A stretch of 64,000 nt of DNA from Branchiostoma floridae. Lineage: Eukaryota; Chordata; Leptocardii; Amphioxiformes; Branchiostomatidae. Location: positions 8,302,354-8,366,353 of the forward strand of contig NC_049991.1 of assembly GCF_000003815.2 (NCBI RefSeq), in the 5' to 3' direction. Made by a program: the position numbers and the translations under genes. The notes under the pieces were generated by a model. It had not been told where the DNA came from. It did not search any database and worked only from the letters and a program-made list of their open reading frames with translations. Of the stretch, positions 23,885 to 31,669 are shown one piece after another; the stretch's first letter is position 1; each line of letters starts with the position of its first letter.

Positions 23885-26800
23885 GTAGGATTCTGTCATT
23901 CTTCTCAAAATCGAGCGACATCTGCCTTCTGCAGACAAAACTATGATTCAATACTCCTTAAATCTTACATTTAGATGTCCAAGTATTTAATAGAATGGCT
24001 TTTCTTTGGCCTTCTCAGCGATTATTTCCCCGAAATTCACCCCAGATTACGACGTGTTACGAAAGTTGTGGCCTCGTCAACAAATCAGACGATCTGCAAG
24101 TGTAAAGCAGAACTTATTTTTATAATGACAAAAAAATAAATAAATTTATTTTCATCTTATTATGAAAGCATGATTTGTTTCATCTGTAATTTTAGTATGT
24201 GGGGTTTTGTAAGCTTTTTGTACCTGTTAAAAAGAAATGGTTACTATCGACACAAAATTATGGGGGAGGGGGGTAAAAAATAAACCTTAGCGTGAATTTT
24301 TGTGTGCAAGTTTTTGGTTGAATCTCTGCTGCTGTTTGTTTGAAAATAAACAGGTGAACGTTCCAAAGACAAGGCGCACTTTCTGCAAGAAGTGCAAAAA
24401 GCACTGCAACCACAAAGTGACGCAGTACAAGACTGGCAAGGCTTCCTTGTACAAGTTGGGTATGTGTATTTTATTATTTTATCATATATTTTGTATATAA
24501 TATTAATAAGGGTTATTTTCTGTATATGTTATTTATACTTTCTGAATTAATGAGACTTCCATGTTGTAACATCAAGTAATTTGCAGAAAGTTTTTGGAGC
24601 TAGCAGAAATAAGTGAAAGTAACGTGCGAATTATGTGGCTGAGTGGTAGAAATTATTATTATAGTATACGGCCCTGTGGCTGTACTAGTATTAAGAATTC
24701 GAGTTGCAGAATTGCAGAGAAAACATGTAGAAGAAAGAAATTTGAAAGCACAGAATATTTGTATGCCGTAATGATAAACCTTGAAACAATTGCTGTGGTT
24801 TTTATAAGCCTTCTCACACTAGTTACCACGCACGCACGGTTGAAAGGAACTCCGGGTAATATGTCAAAGTTGAAGACCCTCAGACATCAACAGACTTGTC
24901 TCTACCATTGTTTCGATTTGTTTAACAATGTCTGGAATGTAATGGCGCCTGCAAAATGGCAGAATGTTGATTTTCTGGGTGCCTTCAACTTATTACCCAA
25001 AGTTCCTTTCATCTGCGCATGCGTTGTAACTAGTGCGAGAAGGCTTGTTATCATGGTTTTTGGATGACCTCTTCACTGCAAATTTATGACACCATGAATG
25101 TGCGTTTGCAATGTACTGCCACTGGTCTACCAAATTGTTTCAACTGTGAAGTTAAGATGCTCCTAAAGCCTCCTTTACCCTTCCATAGCAAAATAAATTC
25201 TCCGCAAAAATAGATGAATTTGCAATTGATGTTGGAAATGTCCCATTTTTACTCATTCCTATCATTGTTACCTTTACGTTTCAACAAGTACTTCTTTTCC
25301 GTCACAGGTAAGAGACGTTACGACAGGAAACAGTCTGGTTATGGTGGTCAAACCAAGCCCATCTTCCACAAAAAGGTAACTAAGGATATATATTTTTCAG
25401 GGGCATTGACCCCAGCTTTGTGCCTGGTTTCACCATCAGTTTTGGGTTTGGCATTCAGAGGCAAATGGCTCCAAAACAAGAGCGATTTGATATCCAACCG
25501 CTCGGGATGGTGCGGTGTGTCTTACCTGGTAGATCGTTGGGTCAACCACGATGTTCTGGGTTCTATACTGGCCATGCCCCTGATGTTGTACCCTTGGGAA
25601 AGAAACTCTTCTTTTCTTTTCTGGTAGAAAGAGCTCATGTTTTGATACAACTTTCATTTTACTGGGTCTTTGTACTATTTGTCAGTTCTACTTTCAATGA
25701 TGTTAACAATGCATAGATCATTGAATTTCCTGTTCCTAGCATTGGGAGATCTTTTACATGTAGCGTCTCACATCAATTTTGTGCCACCAAACTAGCTATT
25801 CCCTTCCCTTCTTCACCCCCAGTCGGCTTTCTTAAAAAGCTGTCTTGTTTCAAAAGAAACTTGATAAAAATTTTTATTAGCAAAAACACACAAAAATGGC
25901 AACCATGCCCATGTGTTACTGCTGAAAAAGCTTGTTGTCAATGATGAGTATTGAATCTGACTTGCCTATAGTGGCATGTTGACATACACATTCTTAGGAC
26001 ACCTCTGAGACAACTGTATACCAAAATGGAAAAGAAAAGTTGGACACTTCCACTGTCAACTATTGTTTACCATAGCATGTTAGGCATGAAAAAATATGAA
26101 AACAGAAACATTACAGCTAAGTTAAGTTCAAAAGAACAGAACAGTCATTGTACATTGTACTTTATTTGTCTATTGGTAGGACAACTAAGGTTAATCAAAA
26201 AGACCCTACTCAGGTATTTTTAAGGGTTAGACCTTAGAAGTTAGAGGAGGAATACTAGTAGGTTTCCGACCAGAACACACTAACTGACTATGGCAAAACA
26301 CCTTCACTTTTCCTTACAGTTTTGGGCTCTTAACGCCCATTCCTCATTAACTGGGAAAATTGGAGGTAGAAAATTGTAAAAAATAAAGTTGTCCAAAATG
26401 CTTACCTGCTGGTATGAACTTGTTACCATTTATATCGACTATCTTTTGCTATTTTTGTCTGGTGCTAACACGCTTAATTTTGGAGATATTTGATTTTTAG
26501 TAGGCCATGTCATCTTTCCTACAATTTCGTAATAAAGAGCATATTACTACACAGAGAAATGTTCCAGCAAGTAATAGTGGATTAACAACAGCCAAATTAA
26601 CGAATTTTCCAACCCAAAACCTTCAAATTACACGCCAATGAGAAATATTTAACCGCCGTGTCATTTGTTTCGGAATAATCATCAAAATTACTTGCTATTA
26701 AGTTTGCTACATTTGTATAAAAGTAAATAAATGATATATTTTTTTTCTGATATGAAGACAAACCGTCTAATACTCCTTAATTTTCACCCTGTAGGATGGG

Positions 26801-29800: not shown

Positions 29801-31669
29801 TCTGGGAGCATTCTTTCCTATGAGTACAAAAGTAATGATCTTTCTATACATTCTAAGGGACTTATTATGGTAACGTAAATTATATCAAAAAAGTGATAAA
29901 CGGCCTGAGATTGGCGGTTATAGTCATGTTTCCAACATTACTGTTTTATGTGTTCTGTCATTTGTTTGTTACGCAACACCACTGTTTAGCAGATAAAACA
30001 GTGAAAAAATTATCGGAAAATGTCTTTTCGTAAGCGAATTACACCCAACAGAAGTTCGGTAACGTAAATTATACAAAAGTTGGCGACAAGAATAAAACGG
30101 CATCTGACGTAAAAAGATCGTCTGCTGGACAAGTTCATCAACACGTGACAAGCCAGCCTAAGTGGTTGATGTAAATTATGACTGAAAATTTAAAGAACTA
30201 ACGTCTTTTCATTATCAGAACGCCACGATATTCACCTTTATAGCATTTCCGACACGTGTTTTTAGCGTGTTTCTAAGCAAAACCTTACCCGGGACGACCA
30301 AAAGGCAACTAACAATGGTGGGAAAACATTGCTTAGCATATTACTATCATGTACTTGTAACGGAAAAGGGCAAAATACGTAGTCATTGTGTCTTTAAAGA
30401 AAACTGTGGCCCGCTGCTTATGTGCGACAGCAATTTGCCCCTTTAACGAGGAATGGGCGTTAAAATTAAACATGCTTGACCTGGTAGGATGACCCTTACT
30501 AAAGCTACATGTAGGTACTGATTTTACCCGAGTCAAGTGAGAACAATTGTGTAAAATACCTTTCCCAAGGGTAGAACAACATTGGCATATCAGGGTTGTA
30601 AACTGGGGGCCTTTTTATTCTTGCAGAACACACTAACCACAGTTCATTTTGTTGTCCTTGTCAGGCTAAAACAACCAAGAAGATCGTGTTGCGTCTAGAG
30701 TGCACGGACTGCAGAGCCAAGCGTATGGTTGCCATCAAGCGGTGCAAGCACTTCGAGTTGGGCGGTGACAAGAAGAGGAAGGTAAGTCAGCACAGTGGCA
30801 TGGCGCACACTCTTAAACAAAGACAACGAATACGGAGTTTGTACCGATGCTATTGATGACATTTCCAAGTTTGAGTCAGGTTTCATTTGTTGTGTTGGGT
30901 TGAAGTTTATTTATTGTATCATGACAGTAGTACTAGTACTAGTAGTAGTAGTAGAATCAGTATTCATGCCAGCCAATGACTTAAAGGGGTGTCTGTAGAG
31001 AGAAAAGTTATGCTAGTTATACTCCCCAGGAAAATTTGTCATTCCCTGAAACAATATTTCCAGAATTTGGAGGGGCAAAATGTCCACAATGCGCCTCCCC
31101 CTGCTAGAATACTGGTTTTACAAAATGCTGAAAAAGCTTGTCTATGATGAGTATTGAACCTGACCTGCCTACATTTGGCGTGTTGACATACACATTCTTA
31201 GGACACCTCTGAGACAACCAACAACAGACGGAAAATTTTAAAAGCAACAATTACATGGAGACAACTTCTGCACTCCCTTTGTCTACTACATACATTAGCC
31301 TTGTATCCATCCTATTATGGCTACAGTTTGCTCTTTTGATCAACTGGATTTTTTGTGAATACTTTTTCTGTTAGTCTGTGCAACGCAAACTCCGCTGGGT
31401 GGGCTGTAGAGAAGCTTGCTTAAGTCAGGTTATTTTTCTGAGTGCTTCTAAGAATTATTTGATACCCAGTACTAGACTGTTCTATGGGGGAGTGATCAGA
31501 GAAACAAACTAAATAGGGTGGATACCAGGTTATCAACTTTAAACACAACAGGTTTAGACTTTGAAAACTGTATCTGAAATTAACAGTGTGTACATTGTAG
31601 TCTCTGACAATTTGTGTTCTCTGACAATTTGTGTTGTTTGTGTTACAGGGACAGATGATCCAGTTCTAA
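23882..31669 (+). CDS. RPL36A: Large-subunit ribosomal protein eL42 (RPL36A), complete 104 aa, 5 exons
   Basis: Exons: 23882-23884 (ATG alone), 24354-24459, 25308-25375, 30665-30781 and 31649-31669 (ends IQF, TAA). The ATG-only first coding exon and the intron placement match the vertebrate gene as I know it. The protein is near-identical to animal eL42: [46 protein letters not shown]. Zinc-ribbon cysteines are C12/C15 and C72/C75. The second pair is spaced CTDC, two residues shorter than the human CVEPNC, which explains 104 versus 106 residues. It is a structural protein of the 60S subunit near the E site. AATAAA at 31707-31712 marks the 3' end. Introns 3 and 4 host snoRNAs, a common arrangement in ribosomal protein genes. 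Intron 3 is swollen to 5.3 kb by transposons. Confidence 0.97.
25478..25620 (+). repeat. tRNA-derived SINE fragment in RPL36A intron 3
   Basis: A tRNA-like head (TGGTAGATCGTTGGGTCAAC, then a degenerate B box near GGGTTCTATACTGG) is followed by GCCCCTGATGTTGTACCCTT. The same order is seen at 23612-23712. It has no intact cloverleaf. Confidence 0.5.
25935..26013 (+). ncRNA. Box C/D snoRNA, intron 3 copy
   Basis: A terminal stem TTGTC/GACAA (25935-25939, 26009-26013) brackets box C ATGATGA (25941-25947) and box D CTGA (26005-26008). An inner CTGA at 25957-25960 could be D'. The sequence before box D contains CTTAGGACACCT, complementary to the conserved 28S rRNA segment AGGUGUCCUAAG as I recall it. 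By the D+5 rule it would direct 2'-O-methylation of the second G group in that segment (AGGUG). It is the right size (79 nt), lies on the host strand, and is repeated in the next intron. Confidence 0.85.
27355..28664. mobile_element. hAT-like non-autonomous transposon, related core but different subterminal sequences
   Basis: The ends are CAGGGCTC and GAGCCCTG, with AATGT duplicated outside (27350-27354 and 28665-28669). The interior from about 27468 to 28495 is clearly homologous to the core and right half of the copy at 2072-3675. The ends instead carry GGTCGCA/TGCGACC repeats on the left and GCTCCTA repeats on the right, where the other copies have GGGACA repeats. Confidence 0.8.
28945..29017. 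repeat. Palindrome with CCAAT boxes
   Basis: Perfect 16-bp arms (28964-28979 and 28982-28997) around a two-base centre extend outward as GATTGGTCA/TGACCAATC and CGCT/AGCG. Further CCAAT-type motifs lie near 28871 and 29052. It is inside the TTAA-flanked element. Confidence 0.8.
29385..29472 (+). repeat. tRNA-like sequence (SINE head or tRNA pseudogene)
   Basis: An A-box-like TGGCCGAACGGTT and a good B box GGGTTCAAATCCC are spaced as in a tRNA with a long variable arm. The 3' acceptor strand AGTCGGG has no partner on the 5' side. I treat it as a degenerate or SINE-derived copy. Confidence 0.45.
31138..31217 (+). ncRNA. Box C/D snoRNA, intron 4 copy
   Basis: This is a paralogue of the copy at 25935-26013. 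It has the terminal stem TTGTC/GACAA, box C ATGATGA (31144-31150) and box D CTGA (31209-31212). Its guide (CTTAGGACACCT) is identical to that of the first copy. The middle third between the inner CTGA and TGTTGACATACAC has diverged, while the guide, boxes and stem have not, as expected for a functional guide RNA. Confidence 0.85.

Follow-up and report, generated by a model that had tools for sequence, protein, structure and literature searches.

A box C/D small nucleolar RNA in two copies within lancelet RPL36A, with a predicted guide for the SNORD58 site of 28S rRNA

Two short and closely similar segments in consecutive introns of RPL36A, a ribosomal protein gene of the lancelet Branchiostoma floridae, raise the question of whether both encode the same box C/D small nucleolar RNA (snoRNA), and which ribosomal RNA (rRNA) position such a molecule would modify. 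The segments lie in a 64-kb stretch of contig NC_049991.1 (the window; contig positions 8302354-8366353), and coordinates are positions in this window unless another sequence is named. An earlier note on this DNA had proposed a snoRNA duplicated within RPL36A, and blastn within the window aligns the two segments where the note had placed them, with 91.4% identity over 81 nt (E 1.4e-27). The host gene is on the plus strand, with tblastn exon matches at 24354-24461, 25307-25375 and 30662-30781 and a final coding exon at 31649-31669 that was read from the sequence. Its joined exons, with the first methionine assumed, match Pfam Ribosomal_L44 (E 4.1e-33). The exon carrying the start codon was not located, and numbering the host introns as 3 and 4 assumes one more upstream exon (Table 1).

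Comparison of the two copies revealed a common architecture. Written as RNA, both feature box C (AUGAUGA), box D′ (CUGA), box C′ (RUGUUGA) and then a 12-nt guide, CUUAGGACACCU, that abuts box D (CUGA). Boxes C and D are joined by a short terminal stem, GTTGTC/GACAAC in copy 1 and TTGTC/GACAA in copy 2, and the box scan described below agrees on the stem lengths. Alignment and box scan both bear out the claim that terminal stem, box C, box D and guide were kept in the two copies, and an internal C′/D′ motif is also present. Antisense elements of box C/D snoRNAs span roughly 10-21 nt just 5′ of box D or D′, with the target at position +5; in these copies such an element lies upstream of box D and has a +5 target in the Rfam eukaryotic large-subunit (LSU) consensus. 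A candidate 9-nt D′ guide reads GUAUUGAAU / GUAUUGAAC in the two copies. The divergence of the central spacer, also part of the original claim, could be refined: the differences fall mostly between D′ and C′, mainly in the loop of a small hairpin, and touch the first base of C′ (A/G). Comparison of the two sequences suggests that the hairpin itself was kept (UGCC...GGCA / UGCC...GGCG). On the 5′ side the copies have 12 identical flanking bases in common (TGCTGAAAAAGC), and at the stem they differ in length by 3 nt; on the 3′ side they diverge immediately past the snoRNA.

Table 1. Coordinates of the snoRNA copies, their host introns and related features. Positions refer to the window, except for the last two rows.
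Feature	Position	Strand	Basis or remark
RPL36A intron hosting copy 1 (intron 3 on the numbering in the text)	25376..30664	+	GT..AG, 5289 nt; tblastn exons, splice sites
Box C/D snoRNA, copy 1	25934..26014	+	81 nt, 6-bp terminal stem
Box C, copy 1, ATGATGA	25941..25947	+	sequence alignment
Box D′, copy 1, CTGA	25957..25960	+	sequence alignment
Probable box C′, copy 1, ATGTTGA	25976..25982	+	one mismatch to RTGATGA; read from sequence
Guide CTTAGGACACCT, copy 1	25993..26004	+	12 bp and one G-U to LSU rRNA consensus
Box D, copy 1, CTGA	26005..26008	+	sequence alignment
4.1-kb inserted element, 3′ of copy 1, same intron	26330..30463		33-nt inverted ends, 88% complementary; TTAA at both ends
RPL36A exon separating the host introns	30665..30781	+	tblastn match 30662-30781, splice sites
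RPL36A intron hosting copy 2 (intron 4 on the same numbering)	30782..31648	+	GT..AG, 867 nt; tblastn exons, splice sites
Box C/D snoRNA, copy 2	31138..31217	+	80 nt, 5-bp terminal stem
Box C, copy 2, ATGATGA	31144..31150	+	sequence alignment
Box D′, copy 2, CTGA	31160..31163	+	sequence alignment
Probable box C′, copy 2, GTGTTGA	31180..31186	+	one mismatch to RTGATGA; read from sequence
Guide CTTAGGACACCT, copy 2	31197..31208	+	identical to copy 1 guide
Box D, copy 2, CTGA	31209..31212	+	sequence alignment
rDNA-like fragment	L004 1501-1963, contig C4		starts about 11 bases past the target
rDNA-like fragment	L005 1391-1673, contig C16		73% like L003

A scan of both strands of the window for RTGATGA followed 40-120 nt on by CTGA, with a stem of at least 5 bp, returned these two copies only, and 30 mononucleotide shuffles averaged 0.1 (three shuffles had one hit each). 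In the genome (513 Mb, 431 contigs) the exact pattern TGATGA-N45..75-TTAGGACACCTNTGA occurs at two places, both of them here, and its reversed control has none. Used together with its short flanks as a DNA query against the whole genome, copy 2 recovered the same pair. The guide core TTAGGACACC, when one mismatch is allowed, is found four times in the window, where 3.7 matches are expected; the two exact matches are the two copies. ARAGORN found no tRNA in the window.

The 28S complementarity stated in the earlier note holds against the Rfam eukaryotic LSU consensus, an alignment of which was obtained by way of L003, a piece of eukaryotic ribosomal DNA (rDNA) found in a bacterial metagenome-assembled genome (MAG). 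All 12 guide bases pair, and one G-U pair extends the duplex to model positions 2656-2668: the complement aGgUGUCCUAAG corresponds to LSU_rRNA_eukarya 2656-2667, counted from the alignment, and the next G pairs with the U that precedes the guide. Counted back from box D, the fifth base of the guide lies opposite model G2660, the base chosen by the D+5 rule and in agreement with the predicted G; this G directly precedes UCC within AGGUGUCC of 28S. Judging from its sequence context, we take model G2660 to be human 28S G4198. The same guide, there as UUCUUAGGACACCU, is part of the Rfam consensus of SNORD58 (U58, RF00151), which targets 28S Gm4198. Gm4198 is assigned to SNORD58A (PMC9696202), Gm4198 and its neighbour Um4197 are treated as methylated (PMC4463414), and SNORD58 is among the snoRNAs with reduced NPM1 binding in mutants, with Gm4198 among the matching sites (PMC8393311).

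The two segments are thus very likely functional copies of one intronic box C/D snoRNA that guides the 28S site of SNORD58 and arose by duplication within its host. In the proposed mechanism each snoRNA would be released from its RPL36A intron following splicing and would assemble with the standard box C/D proteins; the D guide would then pair with the conserved AGGUGUCCUAAG segment of 28S rRNA, and fibrillarin would 2′-O-methylate the G opposite the fifth guide base from box D (LSU_rRNA_eukarya 2660; human G4198). The pair, presumably produced by duplication inside the host gene, would perform the job of human SNORD58 and very probably directs the same conserved rRNA mark. We infer its expression, processing, methylation activity and route of duplication from the sequence. 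Ribosomal protein genes are a usual class of snoRNA host. In the fly, 27 of them are given as carrying intronic snoRNAs (PMC2246290), and RpL36A may be one of these.

Several observations weigh against this reading. An Rfam covariance search, which the earlier note had offered as a check, lent it no support: no family reached its gathering threshold in the window, and when a 201-base stretch around each copy was scored, the best results were 18.5 bits for snoR44_J54 (copy 1, threshold 48) and 18.8 bits for SNORD58 (copy 2, threshold 42). In the lowest-energy predictions copy 1 forms the terminal stem, but copy 2 pairs differently and lacks it; this is a weak counterpoint because box C/D RNAs take up their structure together with proteins. 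In vertebrates, intronic box C/D snoRNAs perform best about 70-80 nt from the 3′ splice site, and the lancelet copies lie 4651 nt (copy 1; 517 nt without the insert) and 431 nt (copy 2) from theirs. An intact 28S gene was not found in the B. floridae assembly, in which a 20-base target pattern had no match. A DNA query from L003 recovered two rDNA-like fragments from the assembly, neither with an intact target (Table 1); the C16 fragment has A at the target G and one more change among the guide-paired bases. We take both fragments to be broken copies, with the working rDNA either absent from the assembly or unmatched. A 16-base target pattern also had no match in viral_contigs.

As for L003 itself, positions 1-1948 of this sequence, which is filed under the bacterial MAG Thermodesulfobacteriota DHS20C13, match LSU_rRNA_eukarya (E 3.8e-249). 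Its LSU is interrupted by an insertion of about 370 nt, and telomere-like GGGGTTT repeats stand at the end of the contig; the presence of L003 in a bacterial MAG looks like contamination by a protist.

The invasion of about 4 kb that had been described downstream of copy 1 is also present, as an insert bounded by inverted ends and TTAA (Table 1). Such TTAA ends are reminiscent of piggyBac-like elements. The insert contains internal repeats of GGTAACGTAAATTATA, a near-perfect 27-nt inverted repeat with a 2-nt loop at 28953-29008 and what seem to be further nested elements, for example the inverted pair 27354/28651. The one open reading frame (ORF) scanned in it (28851-29363, minus strand) had no Pfam match. 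Elsewhere in the window, a minisatellite-like array with units of about 37 nt (GGTACTACCTGTACTGTACACACCTGTCCTCTATACA), read by eye, follows an assembly gap directly (32285-32868). A long uninterrupted ORF at 53319-54695 on the minus strand encodes a rhodopsin-family G-protein-coupled receptor (Pfam 7tm_1, E 9.2e-64), and an ORF at 11217-12992 encodes a BTB-BACK-Kelch protein.

The lancelet RPL17 gene was searched for a counterpart of human SNORD58, whose host is RPL17. Inside the gene, in a region (L009) that holds 100 N, there is neither a guide within two mismatches nor a relaxed box C/D candidate, and the region has no Rfam match at gathering thresholds. One guide-like match (reverse 2288) and one relaxed candidate (reverse 3056-3174) were detected in L009, both preceding the first RPL17 coding exon at about 3270; because of the 100 N, some room is left for a hidden RPL17 copy. 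Genome-wide, a SNORD58-like layout (TGATGA, 2-32 nt, TTAGGACACC) gave five matches at three places and four in the reversed control, which is chance level, and none of the five holds the full 12-nt guide. A SNORD58 covariance search of the genome returned no matches, but this carries no weight, since only 64 of the 300003 candidates received a score and the control was detected in 0 of 14 genomes. Within these lancelet searches the guide is seen in RPL36A alone.

Could the pair be something other than two working snoRNAs? The idea that a repeat or mobile element within the intron only looks like a snoRNA was considered and rejected as very improbable: inverted-repeat elements are indeed present in the intron of copy 1, but the search with copy 2 and its short flanks and the exact box pattern each lead to two places in the whole genome. 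It is also unlikely that one copy works while the other, decaying or redundant, has been retained only through a recent duplication. This would fit the 12 bases immediately 5′ of the snoRNA that are still identical, the insert acquired by the intron of copy 1, and the stem of copy 2, which is one pair shorter and missing from its lowest-energy fold. However, boxes C, D′ and D, the guide and 5 bp of the stem are unchanged in both copies, and the change in C′ only replaces purine by purine; outside the duplicated segment there is no clear similarity, and the pattern looks like selection on both copies.

With two functional copies as the preferred reading, their ancestry can be explained in two ways. 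The pair could be a true descendant of SNORD58 in which the guide-bearing half shifted from the 5′ side to the D side and the host changed from RPL17 to RPL36A, a course of events that we regard as possible but somewhat doubtful. The SNORD58 model does align to the C′-to-D half of copy 2, matching GUG-UGAC...UUCUUAGGACACCU, and no guide of this kind was detected in lancelet RPL17, nor any Rfam match in its region. The alignment is nevertheless weak (18.8 bits, E 0.11 for copy 2; 14.7 bits, E 1.5 for copy 1), and it rests on the guide itself, which is constrained by its target, so that an independent origin would yield the same string. Alternatively, the guide may have been rebuilt in the lancelet lineage: a snoRNA in RPL36A that does not derive from SNORD58, with its guide on the opposite side, would have replaced SNORD58 and then been duplicated in its host, as SNORD58 was in RPL17. 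We consider this a serious possibility that falls a little short of an even chance; if it is true, the modified site outlasts its guide gene.

How much of the pair is new depends on the known systems. The earlier note knew of no such pair in this host gene in other animals, and most of this novelty falls because the target is the known SNORD58 site and same-host copies are usual. Of the human box C/D families with at least two expressed members, 59.5% have several copies in one host gene; since within-host duplication is this common, the lancelet pair fits the usual pattern. What stands as new, as far as we have seen, is the host gene RPL36A and the position of the guide at box D: a search of openly licensed literature, mostly by titles and the opening parts of abstracts, found no RPL36A snoRNA and no amphioxus or Branchiostoma report of such a pair. 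The two copies make a clear pair of snoRNAs within one gene that escapes an Rfam scan; the pair would be of use for snoRNA annotation of the lancelet genome and for the study of guide genes that move between hosts, and leaves the general understanding unchanged.

The lancelet pair resembles SNORD58 in its guide, its target and its multiple occurrence within a single ribosomal protein gene, human RPL17 holding the three most expressed SNORD58 members. In contrast to the lancelet guide, which adjoins box D, the SNORD58 guide is in the 5′ half of the consensus and therefore presumably precedes D′. The hosts differ as well, although an RPL17 host supports membership of RF00151 rather than strictly defining it, and both lancelet copies score well below the gathering threshold of that family. 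Drosophila snoMe28S-Gm3113 (RF00531) carries the guide CUUGGGACACCU in its Rfam consensus, which differs at one base and therefore addresses the same rRNA site by pairing. As in SNORD58, and unlike in the lancelet, the fly guide is in the 5′ half, preceding AUGA; the lancelet copies score 15.2 and 14.3 bits against this family, whose threshold is 70. These comparisons suggest that methylation at this 28S site has been retained in a further animal lineage, with a host gene and a guide position that differ from those of human and fly.

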